A program made the position numbers and the translations under genes. DNA of 48,523 nt. Source: a virus. The notes under the pieces are model-generated. The model saw nothing but the letters and a program-made list of their open reading frames with translations. It did not search any database and was not told the origin of the DNA. Shown here piece by piece: positions 7,940-44,690 of this stretch (positions are counted from its first letter, which is position 1; each line of letters starts with the position of its first letter). The stretch lies in the IMG/VR virus record IMGVR_UViG_3300032236_001626, positions 1-48,523 of that record. The stretch is one strand, 5' to 3'.

Positions 7940-8310
7940 TCCGATTCGCTTTGATGCGGTACATCCCTTACTTCAAGGCTCTCTATCCTGTAAGCGCTGA
8001 GGTTGGTATAAATGATAGGCTGCTGATTCAATGTGCCTTCCTTTTTAGTACCGGCAATGGTAAAGTATACCCTTACTCTGTCACCGATCGCATGCATATC
8101 CACTAGGTCGCAGCGATGGTTCACCAGCTGAAATAACCCATAGTTTTCATAGATGTTATCCTGATAGGCATAAGTTAAGTCCACAACAAACAACCGTGTG
8201 CTGAATTTCTCAGTGATGTTCTTTTCAGGATATACCTCTCTCAGGATGCCTTCTATCTGGTGGCTGTTGTCTCTGGTTATGAATTGCGGATCTACTTGTT
8301 TCTTGCTCAT
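7921..8310 (-). CDS. DUF3127-like OB-fold protein (probable ssDNA binding)
   Basis: A 129-aa protein with the DUF3127 pattern: an early Q-I-x-G-I-L strand, RLFVVDLTYAY, then a dimer-like GDRVRVYFTIAG strand and YTNLSAYRIESLEV. DUF3127 proteins are widespread in Bacteroidota and predicted to adopt an OB fold. The position among replication genes suggests single-strand DNA binding. The C-terminal tail is polar and probably flexible, as in SSB proteins. Confidence 0.75.
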   Translation of the reverse strand: MSKKQVDPQFITRDNSHQIEGILREVYPEKNITEKFSTRLFVVDLTYAYQDNIYENYGLFQLVNHRCDLVDMHAIGDRVRVYFTIAGTKKEGTLNQQPIIYTNLSAYRIESLEVRDVPHQSESEWANNQ

Positions 8311-8748: not shown

Positions 8749-8949
8749 TTAATTCAATGTTTTTCTACTCCATTCCTTATGTTCCCTGTATCGCTCTATG
8801 ATGGGAGCCACATCACTGCCGGGCACCACCATGATCGTCATTTTCAGTTCTGGCACATACACCGGTACCTTATGAGCCTGAGATACAGTTTTCAGGCGCT
8901 TCTTTTTAGTTACCATGTGCCCGCTGCCTACCTGTGGCTTATCGATCAT
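8749..8949 (-). CDS. Small basic protein coupled to DGR target 1
   Basis: A 66-aa basic protein with MVTKKKRLKT and a beta-rich centre (VPVYVPELKMTIMVVPG). I chose the ATG at 8949 because it overlaps the stop of the preceding DGR target gene as ATGA, the usual sign of translational coupling. A start at 8967 would add six residues. No family recognised. Confidence 0.55.
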   Translation of the reverse strand: MIDKPQVGSGHMVTKKKRLKTVSQAHKVPVYVPELKMTIMVVPGSDVAPIIERYREHKEWSRKTLN

Positions 8950-9488
8950 TGGTTTTCTTGCACCCATAGCTCAAATTCTAACTGCACCAACAATTCAAGT
9001 TCATTCAGGAAGTGCTTAGCCACATGCTTTGCAGTAGGCTCATCCTTGTAGTAATCCCACGGGCGGACACCGAGATTCGCACCCGAACCGTCGCAGCCGC
9101 AATCGCCGAACGACAGGCCGAAGCCCGCAGGGTTGGAACTATCTGCTACCATATTTACCCATATGCGCCACTTCTGTTGCTTAGCGTCATACATCTTTGC
9201 CAACCATCCACCATTCATCACGCGGTTGATCAGCTTGCAGCGCTTGGTCTGCATTTCGATTCGGCTTTCCAGGCTGTTATCATTTTCCGGTTTGTGGATA
9301 TATTCATTAATATCCACAGCTGCTGCCATACATACATCAGCAAAAGTGGTGATGTCCCTGTAATCTTTCGTAACAGCTGCCTTTACCGGTTGTTGCCCGG
9401 CAAGTATCATCAATACTTTTTGCAGTTCAGGTGATGCAGCCTTAACAGCGGCATCGAAATTGTCTTTAATGATTTCAAGCTTTTGCAT
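8946..9488 (-). CDS. DGR target protein 1 (variable protein)
   Basis: A 180-aa protein, one of three paralogues carrying a DGR variable repeat. The shared architecture is TFADVC (about 48-53), a helical segment with MNGGWLAKM, a QQKWRIWVNM strand, then NPAGFGLSF. The VR encodes about residues 119-141, followed by a helical tail of about 35 residues. This resembles a family of Bacteroidota phage proteins (TFEDAC...GFGFS...F..LY pattern) that I recall as DGR targets of unknown function. It sits downstream of the DnaC-like gene, 3 kb from the template repeat, with no signal peptide or tail-fibre feature. Confidence 0.8.
   Translation of the reverse strand: MQKLEIIKDNFDAAVKAASPELQKVLMILAGQQPVKAAVTKDYRDITTFADVCMAAAVDINEYIHKPENDNSLESRIEMQTKRCKLINRVMNGGWLAKMYDAKQQKWRIWVNMVADSSNPAGFGLSFGDCGCDGSGANLGVRPWDYYKDEPTAKHVAKHFLNELELLVQLEFELWVQENQ
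9064..9132 (-). repeat. DGR variable repeat VR1
   Basis: A 69-bp segment that differs from the template repeat at 13 positions. All 13 are template adenines and all 13 became G. Four of the 17 template adenines are unchanged. The GC-rich continuation at the coding-strand 3' end (GTCCGCCCG) is shared by the VRs but replaced by other sequence in the TR, as expected for an initiation-of-mutagenic-homing site. Confidence 0.9.
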
Positions 9489-9517
9489 AACGTTTGTTTT
9501 ATATGTTTTTAACTATT

Positions 9518-10450
9518 TTATCCTAATCTCCTATCCGGAGCGATGAATTCAATGATGTTGAACCTTTCCATGATCCTGCTCCATATCCTGGGACCATACC
9601 TTTCCTGCAATAGTTTCGCACTAAGGTTGGTGCTGATGTGGGTCATATGCCATGCAAGCGATGTGTTAGAATACCTTCCGGCTATCACGTCAGCCAGTAT
9701 GTCTATCTTGTTTCCGTAGATGTTTTTTTCTACATCTGTACCTAGATCATCAATGCACAACCCAATGTCCTCATGGTAAAAAGTATCTATGTATGGCGAT
9801 ATCTTCCTGTGAATACCGCTGTATTGTTTGATTACCTTGTGCACTTCCTCTACATCTTTGCGCATGGCTATCTGATTCACAAACTCTGCGGCGTTCACAA
9901 CATCATAGCATCCGCGTTTATTATTGCTGAAAGCCTTCAGTATCTCAGTCTTACCAACACCCACACTCCCGGCTATAAGCAATCCCTTATTAAGTTTCCA
10001 GTTAAAGTGAACCATACCCGTGCCGCTTTCATCTGGCTTGCATAACCTCTCAAATCCTTCATGATTCGTGAAGTAGTAACAAAGCGCTTTTATGATATCC
10101 CTGTTATGTTCATCAACCTTGAACATCTTCCGGCCATCCCTCCCATCAATGTAGGCGCTGTAGCCTATCTGCTTTGCACGGGTGACGATCAGGTAGTCAT
10201 ACATCATCTGTGGCGACCAGGGAGCAAGAAATATATCCTTTCGGCGATTCCATTCATCGCGCTCCATGCGATCTTTTTCACGGTAGTACTTTTCGCGCTT
10301 AGCATTATTCAGTGTTGCTTCTACCTCTTCGCCACTGAGTTCAATGTTATCCCAAGGGTTTTTGCTCCCAGAATCCGCCACCACCGGACTGTAAGATTCC
10401 CTTTCCAGTAACTCCCCGATCAGTATTGGCGTTGGTTTTGTTTCCTGCAT
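9518..10450 (-). CDS. DnaC-like ATPase (probable helicase loader)
   Basis: A 310-aa protein with an AAA+ ATPase core. Walker A is GSVGVGKT at 161-168 and Walker B lies in LCIDDLG, followed by a segment with THISTNLS (sensor 1-like) and RYGPRIWSRI. This layout fits phage helicase loaders of the DnaC/IstB type that deliver host DnaB to the origin. The N-terminal 75 residues are charged and may bind the partner. The gene overlaps the upstream initiator-like gene by 104 bp in another frame; both frames look plausible there. Confidence 0.82.
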   Translation of the reverse strand: MQETKPTPILIGELLERESYSPVVADSGSKNPWDNIELSGEEVEATLNNAKREKYYREKDRMERDEWNRRKDIFLAPWSPQMMYDYLIVTRAKQIGYSAYIDGRDGRKMFKVDEHNRDIIKALCYYFTNHEGFERLCKPDESGTGMVHFNWKLNKGLLIAGSVGVGKTEILKAFSNNKRGCYDVVNAAEFVNQIAMRKDVEEVHKVIKQYSGIHRKISPYIDTFYHEDIGLCIDDLGTDVEKNIYGNKIDILADVIAGRYSNTSLAWHMTHISTNLSAKLLQERYGPRIWSRIMERFNIIEFIAPDRRLG

Positions 10451-11186
10451 AGTTTACCAGATTTTTCCAGCCACTCGCTATGGCCTCGTTTATAATTGCA
10501 ATTGCATTTTTCTCGTCACCTGATGTCTTTACCCATAGCTGTTCAAGTGCCAGCTGTTCCATCTGCAGAGTAAAGCTGAAAACATGTTTTTCACGCTTGT
10601 ACTTTTTCCAGCTATTCCACGATTCAGCAAATTCCTTGCTATCCCAAGGGTATTTTACTTTCTGACTTGATAGAGTATCGATACCCTTTGTATAGTCTAT
10701 CGATAGACTAGAAGTATCTATATCAGTATTATTAAGATTATTATTACTATTTAATATTGATTCTTTAGTAACAGATATATCTTCTTCTTCTTCTTTTTCT
10801 TCAAGACTATGTATAGTCTTTACATAGTCTATAGTATAGTCACCCCATAGACTATGCTTTTTAAGTTCAGATATATACCTTTGATGTGGTTTATTCTTAA
10901 TGTTTTCCTCAATCAACTGGCCATATTGGAACAAACAGAAATTTTTTATCCACCACTTCTTACCTCCCTTCACTTCTTTCACCTGTATCTTGAATGCTTC
11001 CAGCACCTCAGCCTTTTCCAATTGCAGGCCTAAAAGTTCACAGGCAAATTCAATATCTTCATCCCACACGCCCACACAGTCGCAGTTATCAAGTATATAC
11101 AGCCAAAACAGCTTCATATCCTTGCTCAACTTCCTGAACCACTTATTCTTAGTCCACTTATCGGTATCAGTAAATCTCTTGGCCAT
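10347..11186 (-). CDS. Phage replication initiator-like protein (O-like)
   Basis: A 279-aa protein whose N-terminus (KWFRKLSKDMKLFWLYIL...CVGVWDEDIEFACELLG) resembles the winged-helix start of replisome-organiser proteins from Bacteroidota phages. The middle (about 125-180) is low-complexity and rich in Glu, Asn, Ser. The C-terminus (WNSWKKYKREKH...AIINEAIASGWKNL) is the pattern that often interacts with a loader. The DNA of the linker carries iteron-like palindromes (10693-10856), paralleling lambda ori inside gene O. The next gene is the DnaC-like ATPase. Confidence 0.75.
   Translation of the reverse strand: MAKRFTDTDKWTKNKWFRKLSKDMKLFWLYILDNCDCVGVWDEDIEFACELLGLQLEKAEVLEAFKIQVKEVKGGKKWWIKNFCLFQYGQLIEENIKNKPHQRYISELKKHSLWGDYTIDYVKTIHSLEEKEEEEDISVTKESILNSNNNLNNTDIDTSSLSIDYTKGIDTLSSQKVKYPWDSKEFAESWNSWKKYKREKHVFSFTLQMEQLALEQLWVKTSGDEKNAIAIINEAIASGWKNLVNYAGNKTNANTDRGVTGKGILQSGGGGFWEQKPLG
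10693..10856. other. ori: Candidate replication origin: iterons inside the initiator gene
   Basis: The segment holds an 18-bp perfect palindrome (10693-10710), two 8-bp arms around a 2-bp spacer (10803-10820), further ATAGTC copies at 10824 and about 10835, and CATAGACTATG at 10846-10856. All share the core ATAGTCTAT or its complement. A strongly AT-rich stretch (about 10716-10790) lies between the clusters and could be the unwinding element. Origin function is inference by analogy with lambda. Confidence 0.55.
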
Positions 11187-11494
11187 TACGTGAATACAAA
11201 TCGTTTATCTTGTTTCTTGATCGTCGTTACTATCGGTAGTTGTTCTTTGGGTACCAGTTCCATGGCCATCGTCAGATACTTAGATCCTGAGAAGGCTACA
11301 TGCATCTTGTCACCAATTTTAATCTGCATCCATAAGCATTGGTGGTAGCCGCTGTTCGGATATTTCGATTGTTCTATCCGGTAATCGTGTATTTCTATTT
11401 CTTGGTCCAGAAGATCTTCCATGTCTTTCTTCTTTCCCACAAAGGGTTGTGCGTCTGCTGGCAGTTGTATTTTCAGGTCGTTCCATTTGTTCAT
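11186..11494 (-). CDS. Small beta-rich protein after the DGR reverse transcriptase
   Basis: A 102-aa protein with alternating hydrophobic strands (EIEIHDYRIEQSKY, CLWMQIKIGDKMHVAFSG). It does not look like the helical Avd accessory protein. Such small beta-rich proteins after DGR reverse transcriptases may be a recurring neighbour in Bacteroidota, which I cannot confirm here. Its start lies 176 bp inside the open frame of the reverse transcriptase. In the shared stretch this frame looks more protein-like than the Arg-rich RT tail. Its stop overlaps the initiator gene start by one base. Confidence 0.6.
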   Translation of the reverse strand: MNKWNDLKIQLPADAQPFVGKKKDMEDLLDQEIEIHDYRIEQSKYPNSGYHQCLWMQIKIGDKMHVAFSGSKYLTMAMELVPKEQLPIVTTIKKQDKRFVFT

Positions 11495-12512
11495 AGAGTA
11501 GTAGTGTCTTTTTCAGGTGCCGGCAGTTACCATGGCTTAGGAAACCATTGTATGAGGCAATAGCGTAAGGATTAGTAGATTTTTTAAGTTTGCGGGCACA
11601 GCTCTGCTTGATGCGTTTGCGCACCCTGATATGGGTATGCCTGAATACGTAGCCTACAAAGTCAAGGCCGCGCACATCAACAGGAAATACCTGGTGATTG
11701 TTTTTTACTTCCAGACGAAGCACGTCCTTTAGGTAACTGGTGATGTCGGTAAGAAGCTGGTGAAGGCTTTCTTTATCCGGTGACAGTATCACCAGATCAT
11801 CCGCATAGCGGAAATAGTATTTTACTCGCTTTACTTCTTTAAGCCAATGATCAAACCCAGTCAGGTAGAAGTTGGCCAGGTACTGGCTCAGGTAATTCCC
11901 TATGGGCAATCCCGGTGCACTGTCAATGATCACGTCAAGTAACCATAGCAGATCGTTATCCTTTATCTTACGGCGAAGCAGTTGCTTCAATATGTCATGA
12001 TCAACGTTAGGATAGAATTTCCTGATGTCCAGCTTCAGGCAATATTGTGTGCCTGGCACATCCCTCAGCGCTCGTTTCACAGCATAGAAGGCGCCGTGTA
12101 TGCCTTTTCCCTTTACACAGCTATAAGTATCAGCAGTGAACATTTTAGTAAAGACATTTTCAAGATAATTGAGTATCGCATGATCTATTATCCTGTGTGG
12201 GTAATAAGAACATCTGTAAACGTCTCTCTCTTTGGGCTCGAATATTTTGATAATATCATATTCACGGCTAATGTATTTTTTATACAACAGCATGTTGCGA
12301 ATTCTCAGGATATTAGCGGCACGTTTCTTATCGTGCCGCCTTATCCCATAATTATTGCCTTTACCCTTACGAGCCTTTTTATCGGCCAGTTCCAGGTTTT
12401 CGACACTGCAGATGCTTTCGTATATTTTGCCTATTCGTTTCAAGCCTATGTCTTTTGGGTCAGCTTCGCTTTCGCTACCACAGCCCCGATTCACATCGTT
12501 ATTTTTTACCAA
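11319..12512 (-). CDS. DGR reverse transcriptase
   Basis: A 397-aa reverse transcriptase of the retron/DGR/group II type. Visible motifs are LDIRKFYPNVDH (161-172), GLPIGNYLSQ (201-210), where the Ser-Gln replacing Ser-Pro is a DGR signature, and the catalytic YADD at 236-239 followed by a thumb with FVGYVF. It copies the template repeat into error-prone cDNA. No ATG is available: an in-frame TAA precedes TTG at 12512, and GTG at 12494 is the next option. The last 58 codons overlap the downstream gene and look non-native. Confidence 0.93.
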   Translation of the reverse strand: MVKNNDVNRGCGSESEADPKDIGLKRIGKIYESICSVENLELADKKARKGKGNNYGIRRHDKKRAANILRIRNMLLYKKYISREYDIIKIFEPKERDVYRCSYYPHRIIDHAILNYLENVFTKMFTADTYSCVKGKGIHGAFYAVKRALRDVPGTQYCLKLDIRKFYPNVDHDILKQLLRRKIKDNDLLWLLDVIIDSAPGLPIGNYLSQYLANFYLTGFDHWLKEVKRVKYYFRYADDLVILSPDKESLHQLLTDITSYLKDVLRLEVKNNHQVFPVDVRGLDFVGYVFRHTHIRVRKRIKQSCARKLKKSTNPYAIASYNGFLSHGNCRHLKKTLLLYEQMERPENTTASRRTTLCGKEERHGRSSGPRNRNTRLPDRTIEISEQRLPPMLMDAD

Positions 12513-12550
12513 GAGGTAAGGCCTGCATTACTTCATTTCTTTATCATAGA

Positions 12551-12619
12551 TGGACACTGAGATTCGCATTCGAATTGTCGTAGTTGCAATCGTTGAACGA
12601 CAGGCTGAAGCCTGCAGGG
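12551..12619 (-). repeat. DGR template repeat (TR)
   Basis: A 69-bp segment between target gene 2 and the reverse transcriptase, 38 bp upstream of the RT start. Read on the minus strand it has 17 adenines and would encode FNDCNYDNSNANL, the AAY-rich pattern typical of a template. Every difference from the three VRs is at one of these adenines. The order VR, TR, RT matches classical DGRs. It lies outside any predicted CDS and is presumably transcribed as the template RNA. Confidence 0.93.
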
Positions 12620-12653
12620 AACCCAGCTATAGTAATGCACAACCTGTATTAGC

Positions 12654-13094
12654 TTATTCCAGCATCCAGAGCGCCACAAACTTCATCAGCTGCTCCCACT
12701 CTTCTTTGAACTGTTCAAAAGCAAATTCTCCCCTCTCATAGTCGGAAAATTGCGGGCGGACACCGAGATTCGCATCCGAACTGCCGCAGTCGCAACCGCA
12801 GAACGACAGGCCGAAGCCCGCAGGGTTGACCTCTGTTTTCTCAGTAGGGTTAACATGAGCCCATATACCATACTTCTCCTGTCTGGTATCGGCAACGTCC
12901 AGCTTATCAGGGCCATTCACAGCCTTAGCTATCAGCATAGTACGGCGTAAGTAGGCAAGTGCCAATTCTTCGCTGTTAGTGGTCTTTCCGTTAGCATCTG
13001 TTTGCACTGATGGTACGGCGTAATTGCTCTGGTCCTTTCCCTGATCAGCGCATACATCGGCGAACGTACGTAACGTCCTGTAGTCGTTTTGCAT
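12654..13094 (-). CDS. DGR target protein 2 (variable protein)
   Basis: A 146-aa paralogue of the other two variable proteins with a shorter N-terminus: TFADVC at about 10-15, EKYGIWAHV, then NPAGFGLSF. Its VR encodes about residues 90-112, followed by a 33-residue helical tail (FAFEQFKEEWEQLMKFVALW). The stop lies 35 bp before the template repeat, so this is the classical cis target of the retroelement. No signal peptide or membrane segment is seen, which suggests a cytoplasmic product. The biological role is unknown. Confidence 0.82.
   Translation of the reverse strand: MQNDYRTLRTFADVCADQGKDQSNYAVPSVQTDANGKTTNSEELALAYLRRTMLIAKAVNGPDKLDVADTRQEKYGIWAHVNPTEKTEVNPAGFGLSFCGCDCGSSDANLGVRPQFSDYERGEFAFEQFKEEWEQLMKFVALWMLE
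12757..12825 (-). repeat. DGR variable repeat VR2
   Basis: A 69-bp segment nearest the template. It differs from the TR at 12 positions, all template adenines: 11 became G and one became T. In the protein it changes the template Asn/Asp/Tyr codons to the series CGCDCGSSD. Confidence 0.92.
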
Positions 13095-13131
13095 GTGTTT
13101 TATTTATTTTGTTTTAGATAAAAAATGTTTA

Positions 13132-13812
13132 CTAATCTATTTCCCTATCGGCTACAGCTTGTGCCTCATCCTCGTCAATTTCAACAGTGCAGCCATTCAC
13201 CCACAGCTGCATCAGGAATATTTCCCATGCATTCAGGGTTTCAGTCAATGGACTTATGTGCTTACCACGAGAGGAAACAGCAAATATTTTGTTGTCCTTC
13301 TTATCCATGTGTAAGGTGATATCATGGTTTTTCTGTCGGCTACCCAAATAGGAATTACTGTTGCTACTACGCTCACCCAGGTATATGTAGTTACCATAAG
13401 TTTCTTCCTTGATGTCCAGATCAGCCCTAACATCATCACCATACTGGCTTTCAATGTATTTGTGCACTATTTCCGATAGCTTCCAGTGCTTCTTTTCTAT
13501 CTGTTGCAGCACCTTTGCCACATGTTCATTGATCGCAGTAGCGGCTGTAGCAAATGATGTCTTATTTAGTTGCTGCTCTATGATCTGGCACACCATTCCG
13601 GTGTAACTGTCAATGTTGAGTTTGCTAAGGTCGATATCCATCTTGTTGCCGATGGCCTCCTTCACTTTTTTGCCAAAATCGCTATACTCCCTGAACAGGT
13701 CTTTGAGTATTTCATCGATTGTCTTACTGATGTGGGTTTCTACCATTTTTTCAATGGCACAGCTAGCTACTAATTCATTTACCTTTTCTTGTATGATGTT
13801 TTCCAGTTGCAT
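13132..13812 (-). CDS. Protein of unknown function between two DGR targets
   Basis: A 226-aa protein. The N-terminal 125 residues are helical and charged. The C-terminal part is beta-rich (YGNYIYLGER, HDITLHMDKKDNKIFAVSS) and ends acidic. I recognise no family, and it carries no variable repeat. It lies between target genes 3 and 2 with gaps of about 26-38 bp, so it is probably co-expressed with the retroelement. Too large and beta-rich to be Avd; a partner or chaperone of the variable proteins is conceivable but unsupported. Confidence 0.55.
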   Translation of the reverse strand: MQLENIIQEKVNELVASCAIEKMVETHISKTIDEILKDLFREYSDFGKKVKEAIGNKMDIDLSKLNIDSYTGMVCQIIEQQLNKTSFATAATAINEHVAKVLQQIEKKHWKLSEIVHKYIESQYGDDVRADLDIKEETYGNYIYLGERSSNSNSYLGSRQKNHDITLHMDKKDNKIFAVSSRGKHISPLTETLNAWEIFLMQLWVNGCTVEIDEDEAQAVADREID

Positions 13813-13838
13813 ATCAATATCTCCTTCTACAGATGTTT

Positions 13839-14354
13839 TTATTTATGTGTTTTAGATAATTGGTAATTCTGTGCGAAGGCGGTGTACTCAGCTAGGAATG
13901 TTTTGCCCACGTATGCAGCTATCTCCTGGCTGATATATTGCGGGCGGACACCGAGAAACGCAAACGAATCGACGCAGATGCAAACGACGAACGACAGGCC
14001 GAAGCCCGCAGGGAGTTTCTTATCAGGTATAACAGTGAAATAAGGCTCCCACTTACGCTGATCAGTATCAGCAATGATGATCACCTTACCACCATTAAAT
14101 ACGGGTTCAAATAACATCAGGCGTTCAAGGCACTTATCTGCCTTCTGTTTGTAGGTGCCTTTCACTGGTATTGTATAGTCCTTTTCATTTACACCGGCCT
14201 CGCGGCACACATCTGCAAATGTTTTAACGCGCTCAGTGATGGCGATTGTGAATAGGTCCTTACCAAAGACGCTTTCCAGTACCTTCTTACCGGCAGCTGT
14301 AGCAGTCTTATACTGCTTTTTAGCATTGTCTTCAAGTTGTTGTTGTGTTGCCAT
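13839..14354 (-). CDS. DGR target protein 3 (variable protein)
   Basis: A 171-aa paralogue: TFADVC at about 46-51, a helical linker with FNGGKVIII, DQRKWEPYFTV, then PAGFGLSF. The VR encodes about residues 114-136 and is followed by the conserved tail IAAYVGKTFLAEYTAF. I chose ATG at 14354 because the 11 upstream codons do not match the paralogues. It is the first target in transcription order, about 1.3 kb upstream of the template. Its variable residues are hydrophobic (VV-C-I-C-V-D-S-F-A-F), unlike the other two. Confidence 0.8.
   Translation of the reverse strand: MATQQQLEDNAKKQYKTATAAGKKVLESVFGKDLFTIAITERVKTFADVCREAGVNEKDYTIPVKGTYKQKADKCLERLMLFEPVFNGGKVIIIADTDQRKWEPYFTVIPDKKLPAGFGLSFVVCICVDSFAFLGVRPQYISQEIAAYVGKTFLAEYTAFAQNYQLSKTHK
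13945..14013 (-). repeat. DGR variable repeat VR3
   Basis: A 69-bp segment with 15 differences from the TR, all at template adenines: 8 became T and 7 became G. Only 2 of 17 template adenines are unchanged, making it the most altered copy and the only one dominated by A-to-T. Confidence 0.92.
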
Positions 14355-15473: not shown

Positions 15474-15508
15474 TTGCAAAATAATTTGCATTGCAAAGTA
15501 TTTTGCAA
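15474..15508. promoter_or_regulatory. 35-bp palindromic operator candidate at the divergent switch
   Basis: Two 17-bp arms around a single T match at 16 of 17 positions; each arm begins TTGCAAAATA. The element lies between the leftward early operon (start 15391) and the rightward HTH gene (ATG 15527). Within it, TAATTTG and its mirror resemble the Bacteroidota -7 element TAnnTTTG with one base missing, so repressor and polymerase may compete there. Confidence 0.65.
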
Positions 15509-15526
15509 CATAAATTTATCAATAAT

Positions 15527-16090
15527 ATGATGAATGTAAAAGATTTACTAAAACACTATGACATAAAAGAATCTGAATTATCAGCATTCATGGGCATTCC
15601 AAGGGGTAGAATCTCCATGTGGAAAGGCGCACCTAGGAAAATAGAAGATGCCAAAATATATGAAGAAACTGCAAATTTCTTTGCTAGCATGCCTATAGAA
15701 GACGTCAAAATAGCTATCAAGAATTACCGCATAATTGCTGGAAATATAGAGCCGTTGAAAGGTTATCAGCAAACAATAACTTCAGGAAAGGTCAATGAAA
15801 AAAATGTAAATTATGAACGCAAATCCGATGTTAATGGCGTGAATTCATTAACAGGAGGAAAGGACGAAGATTCAGACGATTTGGTAAATTTAGGGTTCAC
15901 CAAAATAGATACCCTTATGTTAAACCGGATGCTATCAATTATCGAAAATGCCAACGCAAACATTTCTAAATCAGAGGATAATGTAAAAATCATGGCAGAA
16001 TCAAACCTTGTCTTGGCAAAGGCCATTGACCGTCTTGTACCTGGCACCCTTCAAAACATTGAAGGCGCGGGAAAAGCCGCGGAAAGATAA
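15527..16090 (+). CDS. Repressor-like HTH protein
   Basis: A 187-aa protein. The N-terminus (KDLLKHYDIKESELSAFMGIPRGRISMWK) reads as a Cro/CI-type helix-turn-helix. The middle is polar and probably flexible; the C-terminal helix (DTLMLNRMLSIIENANANI) may mediate oligomerisation. I chose ATG at 15527 (15530 is also possible), because the upstream TTG at 15491 lies inside the palindrome. Transcribed away from the early operon, it is the best candidate for the lysogeny repressor. No peptidase domain is present, so LexA-like self-cleavage is unlikely. Confidence 0.7.
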   Translation: MMNVKDLLKHYDIKESELSAFMGIPRGRISMWKGAPRKIEDAKIYEETANFFASMPIEDVKIAIKNYRIIAGNIEPLKGYQQTITSGKVNEKNVNYERKSDVNGVNSLTGGKDEDSDDLVNLGFTKIDTLMLNRMLSIIENANANISKSEDNVKIMAESNLVLAKAIDRLVPGTLQNIEGAGKAAER

Positions 16091-16591: not shown

Positions 16592-16741
16592 GTGAAAAGA
16601 AAACAGAAAGACCATGATCATGACTGGCACAAAACGCCACACGATCGCATGCAGGATATCTTCATTGGCCGTCTGGCCATAGCCGGCATTCTTATTGGTC
16701 TTTACCTCATTGTTCACTTTGCTCACAAGCTGTTCCACTAG
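16592..16741 (+). CDS. Small membrane protein (GTG start)
   Basis: A 49-aa open frame starting at GTG, nine bases after the preceding stop. The first 23 residues are charged and His/Asp-rich (KRKQKDHDHDWHK); residues about 24-45 form a transmembrane segment (IGRLAIAGILIGLYLIVHF). It overlaps the 3' end of the convergent HNH gene by 35 bp. A superinfection-exclusion or similar role is only a guess from its lysogenic-operon position. Confidence 0.5.
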   Translation: MKRKQKDHDHDWHKTPHDRMQDIFIGRLAIAGILIGLYLIVHFAHKLFH

Positions 16742-17144
16742 CATTCACTTTATGCCGGCTATAAGATAACCCCAGCTCTATAGCCTCCCTGCTGTTTTCT
16801 GTTATCCACCCATGGCAGTGATGGCACACGGCCAGCCACTTCGGTGTATGAAGTAGTAATATTCCCTCTCTGCCCTCCATATGGTGCACTTCCGTCGCCT
16901 TTTGTGTGCATCCGGGTAGTTGTGCTTCACACGTCTCGTGTTGTGGTAGCCACGCGGCTCGTATCTTCTTATACAGCTCATTATCCAGTGCTTTGCGCTG
17001 GCTCACCTTCTTTATCGGTGTACGTTGCCGGGCTATAGGTTCTTTTGCTCTTGGTATAGGCTTGCCATAAGCCTGTTTCCAGTGCCCATGGCATAACCCC
17101 TTACTGAATACCGGATGATTGCATTTCGCGCATGTTTTAGCCAT
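16707..17144 (-). CDS. HNH-type endonuclease-like zinc protein
   Basis: A 145-aa protein with an N-terminal CAKC...CHGHW zinc-type motif, a basic linker, and a C-terminal HNH-like core: CEAQLPGC, EVHHMEGR and CHHCHGWITEN. This resembles NinG-like or HNH recombination nucleases of phages. I chose ATG at 17144; the upstream start at 17171 would run into the 17164-17187 hairpin. It sits downstream of the lysis genes and converges on the rightward operon. Confidence 0.7.
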   Translation of the reverse strand: MAKTCAKCNHPVFSKGLCHGHWKQAYGKPIPRAKEPIARQRTPIKKVSQRKALDNELYKKIRAAWLPQHETCEAQLPGCTQKATEVHHMEGREGILLLHTPKWLAVCHHCHGWITENSREAIELGLSYSRHKVNASGTACEQSEQ

Positions 17145-17163
17145 ATAGTTTTTATTAGTCAAG

Positions 17164-17187
17164 AAAGCCACCGCTTACGGTGGCTTT
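17164..17187. terminator. Hairpin terminator between HNH and lysis genes
   Basis: A perfect 10-bp stem (AAAGCCACCG / CGGTGGCTTT) with a 4-nt loop, followed by TTTTAT on the plus strand and TTTCTT on the minus strand. It could end both the rightward repressor operon and the leftward lysis operon. A second, longer imperfect hairpin lies at 17197-17240. Confidence 0.65.
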
Positions 17188-19502: not shown

Positions 19503-19537
19503 GGCATGTTTAAACAAAAATGATGTTTAAACATGCC
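19503..19537. terminator. Hairpin between collar fibre and lysis module
   Basis: A perfect 14-bp stem (arms 19503-19516 and 19524-19537) with a 7-nt loop. It lacks a clear T-tract on the minus strand, so it may process or stabilise the transcript rather than terminate it. It directly adjoins one copy of a 20-bp interspersed repeat (19540-19559). Confidence 0.5.
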
Positions 19538-19560
19538 GCCATTCCCGTCTATTGCCTTTA

Positions 19561-27817: not shown

Positions 27818-27868
27818 AGTAGTAAAATTGCTTTTAAAACAGGTCGTGTTCCCCGCCTATTGCCTTTT

Positions 27869-31153: not shown

Positions 31154-33517
31154 TTAAAAACTCAGTCTGCCTCGTTGTGAAATATAATCGTCCATCATTT
31201 TCTTGAAGTTGGTACGCATCGCATTGGTGATCAGCGTAGCATCTGCCTGGGTAGCGCTGCCATTAAGATGTATCACAGGGGCAAAAGTGATGTTCATACC
31301 CACTCCACCGCCTCCGGTACCCGACTGCTGCATCATCGGTATTGGTGTAGATTTATGCATGGCACCGCGAAGGCCACCCAGAGCATTATCCCACGCATGA
31401 ATGAGCGCTGTCGGCCTGATGCTGTCAGCTATCGTTTCTATCAGCTTCACCTTATGTATGTCACGCAGCGCACCTTCCTTAGCCGGTGAGAATGGCAGGT
31501 AGTTCCTGATCTTCTGCGCCACCATCTTCATGGTATCACCTACCTTGCTCACTTTATTCATAATGCCACCGACAATACTATCAATTATGTGTTTTCCAGC
31601 TTCAAAAAATTTAGTTCCAAAACCCCATACCCACTTGAAAATAGATATGAATGGAGTCTTTACATTCTCCCATAGGTTGCTAAAGAATTGGACTATTGGT
31701 TTCCAGTGTTGGTAAATTTGACCCACAGGTGTCATATTCAAAACAACCCAGGTGATTCCTTTCCAAGCTGCTTCAAATATACTCTTGACCCCATCCCATA
31801 GCCACGAAAAGAATTTAGCTATTGGTGTCCATGCAGCTATAATTATGCGCTTTATTAGTCGAAATGAAAATACAAATATAGATTGTACAAGTTCCCACAA
31901 CCCGCTGAAGAAATTACTCACCTGCTTCCAGTACTTGAAGATCAGTGCAACCGGATTGAAATAGATGAATATGCTGTTCTTATACCAGTCCCACGCCCGG
32001 CTGAAGATGTTTTTTATTCCATCCCACAGACCTATAAAGAAACTTTTGATGCTATTCCACGTATTAACTACAATATTTTTCACTCCTTGCCACAGGTTCA
32101 CAAAGAATGCTTTGATTTCATCCCAATAGGTATAGATAAGCACCGCAGCAGCTACAGCCGCTGCCGCAATAAGAATGAACGGATTCATGGCCATGGTAAT
32201 ATTCAGGATGGCCATCACAGCGTTAATACCCTGAATGATCTTGATGATACCCATCAACCCTATCGCAGCACTGGAAATAGCTATAAACGTCGCTGCCAGC
32301 TTGGCCAGCTTCGGATGTTCATCCATAAACTTACCTACTGCCACCACCACATTATTCAGTATACCCAATATTTGCTTATATGGAGCGGCGATAGCTGATC
32401 CCAGGCTGGCCCAGCTATTCGTGATATTACTCTGCATTATCTTTTCCTGCATGCGCTGGCCGGCCATCAGTGCTTTTACTTTTTCGTCAAGTGATGCTTG
32501 TTGGTCTATCTTCCTTTTCATTTCCGGGTATGCGTTCAGGCCCTCATTAGCCAGGAACTGCATAAAGTCAGTACTAAGGCCTTGCTTCCCGCTGAAGGGT
32601 TGCAGAATAGCTTCTATGGCAGCAGGATGCATGCCCCGTAGCTTACCCAGCTGATTCACAAAATTATCAATGCCTAAGAACCTGCCACCCTTATCAAAGA
32701 ATTCAAGATGCTTATGGAACATGGCTGCCACCTCATTGGCTTTCTTCACCTTGTCGCCGCTGGCTATTCCATCCAGTATACGCCTGAAGTTAGTACCCAC
32801 ACTTTGCCCGCTAAAACCTCTTGACATGAAAACGGCACCTAACGCACCCATCTGCTTGCTAGCTTCAAGACCCTGGGTATGCAGATTAGCTAATCCCAAA
32901 CCTGTTTTACTAAAAAATTGATTCATTTCATCGACAGCCTCTTGCCCGGTCTTGCCCACACCACTATCATGTATGCGGGCCACAAGGTCCATCACACCAT
33001 ACATCTCCTTTGCCGCTACGCCCATATCAGTTTTCATATGGGCGGCAAACTCTGCAGTTGCAGCAGGCAGCATATTATCAAAGTAGATGGCCAGCTTCGC
33101 ACTCTGCTCACCTATACCACCTAGTATATCTTCAGGCTTCAGCCTGTTTTGCTTCATTATCCGTTCCATATCCAGGTACGCAGCTGTGGTACCGGTATAG
33201 GTAGCACTCAATTGCTTACCATAAGCAAACATCTTATTGTACATGTCATCATCCAGTATACCACCCTTACCCATCAGCGATGCTTTCAGGTAGTTACCGG
33301 CTTGCTCCATATCTCCGAATGCATCGGCACCTTTTTCAAGAAAATCAAAACCCTTCTTAGCGGCAAACATTTCACTCACACCTTCACCCACCTTGGACAC
33401 ACCTTGACCGAATGCCTGTAGCTTCGCTTCAGTGCGCGAAAAGAAGTCATCCACAACCTGTGAGGCCTGATTCTTTGCTGAGAGCACTAACGCTATTCCA
33501 ATGTTTTTGTCCGCCAT
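31154..33517 (-). CDS. Tail tape measure protein
   Basis: A 787-aa protein. The N-terminal 380 residues match the TP901-like core (GIALVLSAKNQASQVVDDFFSR, MGALGAVFMSRGFSGQSVGTNFRRIL). Residues about 405-475 are hydrophobic (MGIIKIIQGINAVMAILNITMAMNPFILIAAAAVAAAVL). About 475-650 carries Trp-rich repeats of an FFxxLWxxVKxIF type. The length suggests a tail of roughly 115-120 nm at 1.5 A per residue, which is inference. It overlaps the HNH gene stop by one base. Confidence 0.87.
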   Translation of the reverse strand: MADKNIGIALVLSAKNQASQVVDDFFSRTEAKLQAFGQGVSKVGEGVSEMFAAKKGFDFLEKGADAFGDMEQAGNYLKASLMGKGGILDDDMYNKMFAYGKQLSATYTGTTAAYLDMERIMKQNRLKPEDILGGIGEQSAKLAIYFDNMLPAATAEFAAHMKTDMGVAAKEMYGVMDLVARIHDSGVGKTGQEAVDEMNQFFSKTGLGLANLHTQGLEASKQMGALGAVFMSRGFSGQSVGTNFRRILDGIASGDKVKKANEVAAMFHKHLEFFDKGGRFLGIDNFVNQLGKLRGMHPAAIEAILQPFSGKQGLSTDFMQFLANEGLNAYPEMKRKIDQQASLDEKVKALMAGQRMQEKIMQSNITNSWASLGSAIAAPYKQILGILNNVVVAVGKFMDEHPKLAKLAATFIAISSAAIGLMGIIKIIQGINAVMAILNITMAMNPFILIAAAAVAAAVLIYTYWDEIKAFFVNLWQGVKNIVVNTWNSIKSFFIGLWDGIKNIFSRAWDWYKNSIFIYFNPVALIFKYWKQVSNFFSGLWELVQSIFVFSFRLIKRIIIAAWTPIAKFFSWLWDGVKSIFEAAWKGITWVVLNMTPVGQIYQHWKPIVQFFSNLWENVKTPFISIFKWVWGFGTKFFEAGKHIIDSIVGGIMNKVSKVGDTMKMVAQKIRNYLPFSPAKEGALRDIHKVKLIETIADSIRPTALIHAWDNALGGLRGAMHKSTPIPMMQQSGTGGGGVGMNITFAPVIHLNGSATQADATLITNAMRTNFKKMMDDYISQRGRLSF

Positions 33518-34101
33518 TAAATTTTAATTAAGCTGTGAGTCTCATTTATTACCTTATGCTCGTAACCCATTTCTTTCAAAAGAACTCTATGCCTTTTACC
33601 CATAAAGATCTTTTGTACATAGTGCCAGTTCAAATTATATAGATCGGCTATTTCTGTAAAAGACTTACCCGCATATCTAGATTCAATTATCTGTAATAGC
33701 AATTCTTTCGTTACACTATGTGCTTTTTTTGAAAGTTTACTATTGTAAGAATGTATAATATTGTCTGAAGCACTGACCCATTCTAAGTTGTCCGGTGAAT
33801 TGTTAGTTTTGTTACCATCTTTATGATTTACCTGATCATCATTTTGTTGCTCTCCAATAAAGGTTATTGCCATGAAATAATGGAGAGTGTTACAATTTCT
33901 TATGCCATCTTTATATAGCGTTACCATATAATATCCCGCATTTCCCATGAATACACTCTTATATTTACCAGCAACAGAACAGATAGTGTCATTACTGCGT
34001 TTTACAGTTCGTGGTATAGAATACACTCGACCCATATTGCTAATCTCATACAAACCCTCAAAACCTAATATTGGCTTCCAAATTTCTGTTTGCTGTGACA
34101 T
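33517..34101 (-). CDS. HNH homing endonuclease (NUMOD4)
   Basis: A 194-aa protein with three parts: NUMOD4 (EIWKPILGFEGLYEISNMGRVYS), an HNH core (VNHKDGNKTNNSPDNLEWVSASDN) and a C-terminal helix-turn-helix-like DNA-binding part (ESRYAGKSFTEIADLYNLNWHYVQKIF). It is free-standing, not within an intron. It lies between the tail chaperone and tape measure, an AT-richer island within the late genes. I chose ATG at 34101; 34110 is TTG. Confidence 0.9.
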   Translation of the reverse strand: MSQQTEIWKPILGFEGLYEISNMGRVYSIPRTVKRSNDTICSVAGKYKSVFMGNAGYYMVTLYKDGIRNCNTLHYFMAITFIGEQQNDDQVNHKDGNKTNNSPDNLEWVSASDNIIHSYNSKLSKKAHSVTKELLLQIIESRYAGKSFTEIADLYNLNWHYVQKIFMGKRHRVLLKEMGYEHKVINETHSLIKI

Positions 34102-34111
34102 ATCAAGCAAT

Positions 34112-34647: not shown

Positions 34648-34714
34648 AATATGTGTTTTGAGGTTATTTAACTTTTATCTTTTCACTTTTGCCTTTTGAC
34701 TTATCTAAAGCCAA

Positions 34715-35338: not shown

Positions 35339-35376
35339 ACTTGGCATCACATTGCCGCATTCCCACACATTATCGC
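35339..35376. repeat. 38-bp interspersed repeat, copy 1
   Basis: This segment matches 43674-43711 at 35 of 38 positions in the same orientation. Both lie just upstream of leftward structural genes' spacers (next to tail tube and gpW-like genes). It contains an internal CACATTnnCGCATT pattern. Confidence 0.75.
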
Positions 35377-35381
35377 ATTAA

Positions 35382-41984: not shown

Positions 41985-42016
41985 TGTTCCTCAAAAATCA
42001 TAAATACATCATGGCG

Positions 42017-42037
42017 CATTCCCGCCTATTGCCTTTT
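42017..42037. repeat. 21-bp interspersed repeat, copy near capsid gene
   Basis: CATTCCCGCCTATTGCC is followed by TTTT. Near-identical copies lie at 27849-27870 and 19540-19559, all in intergenic positions just downstream or upstream of leftward late genes. Confidence 0.7.
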
Positions 42038-43673: not shown

Positions 43674-43711
43674 ACTTGGAATCACATTGTCGCATTCCCC
43701 CACATTATCGC
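43674..43711. repeat. 38-bp interspersed repeat, copy 2
   Basis: Matches 35339-35376 at 35 of 38 positions. It lies between the gpW-like gene and the portal gene. See copy 1. Confidence 0.75.
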
Positions 43712-43712
43712 T

Positions 43713-43922
43713 TTACCCGCGCAACCCTTTTCTATAAATACCCTTCCATTTCCGCTTCGGAGCATTGGCTAACCCAAGATCCTGCTCCATTTCCGCCTTC
43801 AATGAATTCATCTCTGCCAATGTTCTGAAATGCACCTCCTTATCGCTATATTTTACAAACGTTGCACCCAATGCTATAGCAGAGCACAATTCAGTGTATT
43901 GTTCGGTCGTATAAGTAGCCAT
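43713..43922 (-). CDS. gpW-like head-tail joining protein
   Basis: A 69-aa protein matching lambda gpW in size and pattern: YTELCSAIALGATFVKYSDKEVHFRTLAEMNSLKAEMEQDLG and a basic end. In lambda, gpW plugs the portal after packaging. It is placed directly upstream of the portal as in lambda. Confidence 0.85.
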   Translation of the reverse strand: MATYTTEQYTELCSAIALGATFVKYSDKEVHFRTLAEMNSLKAEMEQDLGLANAPKRKWKGIYRKGLRG

Positions 43923-44306: not shown

Positions 44307-44399
44307 AAAACGGGTATTTGAAGTAAGTAATTTTTGTACTGTAGGGGCTGGGTTCACCCCTGCCCGATAACACCGGCCACACCACACACTTTTTGCTTT

Positions 44400-44690
44400 T
44401 CACTTTTGCCCTTTGCCTTCCTCAGGTGGCATATACTTCGATCGCTGCACACTCAGTTTATACCACGGGTCGGGCATCACCCGCCCAACAGCGGTATAAA
44501 TCCGCTCTTTGTTGTCCGTTACATAGGCCCTCAGGCTCTTATCCAGCTTGTTATTGTCACTCATCCACACCAGGTATTCAGCCGGCACCTCCACCATCGG
44601 TTTGCCCTTATATTTGCCGTAAGGCATCAGATCAGTGTCCTTCAGTACCTTGAAATTCACATTGAACGCCACTTTTTTATTATCATCCAT
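44400..44690 (-). CDS. DUF3820-like protein
   Basis: A 96-aa protein with the DUF3820 core: DTDLMPYGKYKGKPMVEVPAEYLVWMSDN. This domain occurs beside exonucleases and in phages. I chose ATG at 44690; the frame from 44744 overlaps the preceding gene. The end GKGQK and the following CTTTTGCTTTTCACTTTTGCC stretch form a host-type repeat, so the C-terminus may be altered. Confidence 0.65.
   Translation of the reverse strand: MDDNKKVAFNVNFKVLKDTDLMPYGKYKGKPMVEVPAEYLVWMSDNNKLDKSLRAYVTDNKERIYTAVGRVMPDPWYKLSVQRSKYMPPEEGKGQK

Follow-up and report, generated by a model that had tools for sequence, protein, structure and literature searches.

The DNA that we analyzed, hereafter the window, is a virus record of 48,523 bp. 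It encodes an integrase, TerL, portal, head protease, tail sheath, tape measure, baseplate and tail collar fibre, and the record is that of a temperate contractile-tailed phage. A diversity-generating retroelement (DGR) sits in the early part of this genome, beside a divergently oriented transcriptional regulator (15491-16090), and its neighbors include a DnaC-like helicase loader, SSB and further DNA-metabolism genes. Along the minus strand, the order is T3, a 226-aa protein, T2, the template repeat (TR), a structured RNA, the reverse transcriptase (RT), a protein of about 100 aa, a 279-aa protein, the helicase loader, and T1. T1, T2 and T3 are the target genes, and the helicase loader (9518..10450) marks the early or replication setting. 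The neighbors of the RT were assigned to no named family in Pfam and phrog searches. Relatives of the element in named genomes are mostly from Flavobacterium, Sphingobacterium and Prolixibacteraceae, from which we infer that the phage very likely infects Bacteroidota.

Several other features of the window were observed. The 226-aa protein between T2 and T3 (13132-13812) matches phrog_2600 (E = 9e-32), and in several relatives the two targets are adjacent. Repeats of 30-44 nt, up to 90% alike, are located at 19516-19559, 27824-27867 and 41993-42036; at 35339-35380 and 43674-43715; and at 34671-34702 and 44388-44419. They lie mostly between late genes and are perhaps shared promoters or regulatory elements. 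There are HNH endonuclease genes at 33517-34110 and 16707-17171, one of them between tail genes.

The TR (12551..12619, minus strand) is 69 nt long and has 17 adenines on the coding strand. VR1 (9064..9132, minus strand) is inside T1 and differs from the TR at 13 positions, VR2 (12757..12825, minus strand) is inside T2 and differs at 12, and VR3 (13945..14013, minus strand) is inside T3 and differs at 15. An earlier note on this DNA had described one template with three 69-nt variable copies, differing only at template adenines. Our recomputation gave exactly the same coordinates and the same counts, with 40 of 40 differences on the 17 adenines of the coding (minus) strand. The chance of every difference in one VR landing on adenines is 6e-11, 7e-10 and 2e-13 for the VRs with 13, 12 and 15 differences, respectively. 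A scan for TR/VR pairs between positions 8000 and 15000 returned three pairs, and none of 40 dinucleotide-preserving shuffles gave any. Searching the whole record recovered the TR and exactly three copies, with no further one, and an exact search of viral contigs with the core of the TR found no other record carrying the same core. The VRs lie inside open target genes, and the TR is close to the RT. Pairwise comparison of the three VRs showed 6, 10 and 12 differing sites, and here too every site is a template adenine. Positions 7, 14, 62 and 69 of the TR are A in the template and G in all three VRs. These four positions are a fixed edge difference and not random variation, so only 13 of the 17 template adenines are truly variable.

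The RT gene (11319..12443, minus strand) matches RVT_1 and phrog_1423 (E = 1e-111). The earlier note had read it as a DGR RT from its YADD and GxxxSQ motifs and had made that reading depend on placement in the DGR clade. Both motifs are present, the latter as GLPIGNYLSQ, and the placement was borne out: among solved RTs the best match was the Bordetella bRT (E = 6e-33), followed by a group II intron RT (5e-15). A tree restricted to DGR-type RTs, which places the window RT among them and offers no contrast with other RT clades, grouped the RTs of loci with small targets into one clade of 25 (support 95), with long-branch warnings for rows outside that clade. This clade includes one locus in which the RT is fused to the candidate accessory protein described below, and that locus has the same kind of target. 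The RT most likely starts at a TTG at 12443 and not at 12512, because homologues start there and the preceding stretch is a structured RNA. The extension to 12512 would thus be RNA and not protein.

Using the window RT as query, we retrieved 80 viral loci and 12 genome loci. In nearly all of them the TR is just upstream of the RT and the VRs are further upstream. Within the DNA examined, two VRs were present in 59 of 76 loci, three in 10, and one in 7. Several targets per RT are therefore the rule in this lineage and not a peculiarity of the window, and they have already been published in other phages (PMC8008677, PMC10743442, PMC12629997). The proposal that one RT drives three paralogous targets held up as the best reading of the window. 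Among 145 distinct TR/VR pairs, 2332 of 2612 mismatches were at template adenines; the repeat finder tolerated a few edge mismatches, and the remaining mismatches include positions past the true repeat ends.

Near-identical contigs from relatives allowed us to compare recent changes. Between L017 and L020, 12 of 12 VR changes were at template adenines, compared with one change in 6612 positions outside, and the TR was unchanged. The corresponding numbers were 8 of 9 compared with 0 in 5664 for L020 and L021, and 11 of 11 compared with 14 in 10864 for L045 and L047. The TR was constant among near-identical contigs (one difference in all comparisons of the L026 contig, none elsewhere), and the flanks hardly changed. 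VR variation in relatives thus falls almost only at template adenines, as adenine-directed mutagenic homing predicts and contrary to the non-adenine variation that the earlier note had named as refuting it, and this population-type evidence indicates that the DGR machinery works in nature in relatives. It also bears on the possibility that the window cassette is a relic, its VRs diversified in the past and its DGR now inactive. Only a single genome of this type is at hand, which leaves some room for such a relic. However, the RT is intact with its motifs, the RNA is intact, close relatives are active, and no VR mismatch is found outside template adenines, where drift would have added some. We consider a relic very improbable, and we have little doubt that the window contains a genuine DGR that directs adenine mutagenesis from one TR onto three targets.

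The pattern of errors differed between codon contexts. Among changed second adenines in the 145 pairs, A-to-C changes made up 5.7% in AAC codons versus 26.3% in AAT codons (P = 6e-7), and AAC and AAT changes have the same amino-acid outcomes. GAC and GAT codons showed no difference in A-to-C changes. The rarity of A-to-C in the AAC context would be the opposite of the pattern of the bRT of BPP-1, which has more G misincorporation in NAC contexts (PMC12875486). We treat this as a lead only, because the sequences are related to each other and GAC and GAT are alike.

The fixed sites at the 3' edge are conserved across the family. In the window, the TR adenines at 12558 and 12551 (minus strand; TR positions 62 and 69) are replaced by G in all three VRs, and fixed A/G sites are also found at the 5' edge of the window repeats. 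The two 3'-edge sites are seven bases apart, and were A in the TR and G in the VR in 123 of 123 and 119 of 119 of the pairs with A in the TR. No mismatch was found between them in 132 pairs. In the IMH of BPP-1, five mismatches set the direction of transfer (PMC3240598). By analogy, the 3'-edge A/G differences are probably tags of the IMH*/IMH type, separating the recipient VR from the donor TR.

A conserved structured RNA lies between the TR and the RT (12441..12537, minus strand), as identified by covariation, by an independent model and by comparison with Rfam. Over its approximately 97 bases, 95.4% of cells were paired and there were changes on both sides in 9 of 11 pairs. Covariation was 0.568, compared with 0.187 after shuffling and at most 0.10 after sliding. 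A model trained on 36 relatives, a set that excluded the window and its closest relative, matched positions 12441-12536 of the window (63.9 bits, E = 7.5e-12). With lower scores, it also matched the TR-RT gap of the crAss-like phages cr52_1, cr55_1 and LMMB, of the archaeal virus vir525 and of a Cloacimonadota locus. Rfam RT-17 (RF03020) matched the window at 12448-12523, below its cut-off, and passed the curated cut-off between the TR and the RT of one relative (L044). Judged from these positions, the RT-17 RNA, which Rfam describes by name only, is the 3' domain of the DGR template RNA.

The gene after the RT (11186..11494, minus strand) overlaps the 3' end of the RT gene and encodes a protein of 102 aa, predicted to be OB-like. 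In about 85 of 92 loci, a homologue starts close to or within the 3' end of the RT gene; in most loci the start precedes the RT stop codon by anything from a few bases to some tens. Six of 395 Bacteroidia genomes carry this protein, every time beside an RT. Among 50,697 phage records, only ANMV-1 and vir525 had a match, each directly after a DGR RT. The RT and this protein are fused in one frame in two cases (L103 and L108/L110), and these loci also have TR/VR pairs. In L097 and L099, the ORF that follows the RT is not a homologue. We found no convincing match in Pfam and no sequence match in the PDB. The AlphaFold2 model (pLDDT 92.6) is beta-rich with an OB-like strand order; in an OB fold, five strands form a barrel and a helix separates strands 3 and 4. 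Foldseek matches to the model were weak (all E ≥ 0.18), and several of the top ones are proteins that we take to be OB domains.

These properties make the protein a candidate new DGR accessory factor, which we regard as the probable reading. It could also be a bystander that travels with the RT. Phage replication modules often encode small OB-like proteins, and crAss-like phages, Versailles and LoVEphage have related RTs with no clear homologue, as expected of a bystander. Against this, all homologues found adjoin a DGR RT, including those in archaeal viruses with tail-type targets, the protein is fused to the RT in two cases, and its gene start overlaps the RT end in most loci. A bystander therefore seems unlikely. 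As an accessory factor, the protein may stand in for Avd, as its linkage and fusion to the RT suggest. An Avd model had no match in the window, although its control matched in no genome. The known DGR accessories are Avd, HRDC and MSL proteins (PMC10053308), and a literature search, which did not cover the main DGR classification (Wu et al.), returned no text tying the RT-17 RNA or an OB-type protein to DGRs.

Three individual loci were also observed. On a Prolixibacteraceae contig (that of L087), a second DGR (L111) lies about 40 kb away from the first, with a target of about 480 aa and its own copy of the candidate accessory protein. In L110 (5632-5742 plus the downstream RT ORF), an RT with YCDD is fused to the accessory domain and lies beside a TR; the very long target ORF extends 1932 aa to the edge of the locus and has its VR at the end. 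In cr52_1 (L098, 4495-5733), the annotated tail target crosses two in-frame TAG codons, which suggests TAG recoding.

The targets form one family of small proteins, and phrog_11581 covers 91 of its 97 members. T1 (8946..9488, 180 aa), T2 (12654..13094, 146 aa) and T3 (13839..14354, 171 aa) are all on the minus strand and were defined by phrog matches (phrog_11581 for T1) and family alignments. The T3 frame is open to 14387, and its start is probably 14354, because of the nearest homologue, in L005. In each target, the VR starts after about 90 residues and about 24-39 residues follow it, so that the VR is not at the very C terminus. An AlphaFold2 model of T2 (pLDDT 88.3) had no confident match in the PDB, in a comparison that held no positive control fold. 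In profile comparisons with lectin-type DGR targets, only the VR peptide aligned. We considered a new fold for T1-T3 but do not claim one, because a reduced lectin-like domain is equally likely: in Versailles and LoVEphage, the homologues receive the same full-length VR as a tail protein does. The weak similarity of T3 to a Pfam hemolysin family (E = 0.05, under the cut-off) was taken as chance. T2 as a tblastn query gave no match in phage records, where the search required a more typical member of the family.

Bacteroides phages Versailles and LoVEphage encode full-length homologues of T1-T3. In these phages, one TR rewrites a tail gene beside the RT and also a distant small gene, which sits among replication or methyltransferase/tRNA-ligase genes. 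These arrangements help in weighing whether T1-T3 could be small virion or receptor-binding proteins, in which case the DGR would be real and its diversification would be ordinary host-range switching. Tail proteins make up most phage DGR targets (PMC8144416), the VR peptide is similar to its counterpart in lectin-type tail targets, and the small homologue in Versailles was annotated as a tail protein by HHpred. However, T1-T3 are encoded in the early or replication region, outside the tail module and far from it; in relatives, the surroundings of the cassette contain no recurrent tail gene; and in Versailles and LoVEphage the tail target next to the RT is a separate gene. In the window's lineage, only small early-type targets appear to be within reach of the cassette. 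We consider a virion role rather unlikely and, on balance, favor the interpretation that the targets act as hypervariable binders inside the host cell and not as tail fibres.

The element shares features with several known DGRs. Like that of BPP-1 (bRT, Avd, mtd), it has an RT of the same family, adenine-only TR/VR differences, a structured RNA after the TR, and fixed 3'-edge mismatches that can set direction (PMC3240598). Unlike BPP-1, which has one tail-protein target, the window has three small early-region targets, and its VRs lie 103-118 nt upstream of the stop codon. Within 60 nt after the VRs, no BPP-1-like hairpin was found, and an OB-like protein follows the RT in the window, where no Avd was seen. 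Among named phages, the nearest RTs (41-54% identity) are those of cr55_1, cr52_1 and LMMB, which also share the TR-RT spacer RNA. In contrast to the window, these crAss-like DGRs have a long lectin-type tail target beside the RT and no accessory homologue. ANMV-1 (PMC4372165) has a homologue of the approximately 100-aa protein directly after the RT, annotated as hypothetical only, but it is an archaeal virus whose lectin-type target, AdtA, is near tail fibres.

A second, distal target was described in Quimbyvirus by Benler et al. (PMC8008677), and in a 2025 study, four prophage species had their second VR close to counter-defence genes (PMC12629997). As in the window, one TR writes several genes in Quimbyvirus, LoVEphage and Versailles (PMC8008677, PMC12629997), and the distal target is a full-length T1-T3 homologue in a replication or DNA-modification region. 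These phages differ from the window in having a tail target next to the RT, a longer VR (about 115 nt) and no clear accessory homologue. The number of targets in the window is thus ordinary; the class of target, its location and the RT-linked protein are what is less ordinary.

We propose that a transcript with putative boundaries, carrying the TR and the downstream structured RNA, would be bound by the RT, most likely joined by the approximately 100-aa protein. While copying the TR, the RT would make errors at adenines, and the resulting cDNA would replace the VR of T1, T2 or T3. The two fixed TR-A/VR-G differences at the 3' edge would probably mark the VR as recipient and the TR as donor. 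The products would be three small paralogous proteins, presumably expressed early, with a randomised peptide near the C terminus. Taken as a whole, the element may represent a DGR lineage that has moved off tail fibres to diversify small early intracellular proteins, binders of host or defence factors, with an OB-like accessory protein, not recognised before and also present in archaeal viruses, that takes the place of Avd. We offer this combined interpretation tentatively, as a possibility somewhat short of even.

For bench work, the family supplies a compact RNA and a large number of small target proteins. A non-Avd accessory protein coupled or fused to the RT would provide a second route to study how DGR RTs choose template and primer, and the fate of the cDNA. 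If the targets act inside the cell, then phages would aim targeted hypermutation at host factors or defences, beyond receptor change. An intracellular role was proposed earlier for single distal targets (PMC8008677, PMC12629997); here, if true, it would be all that the element does.
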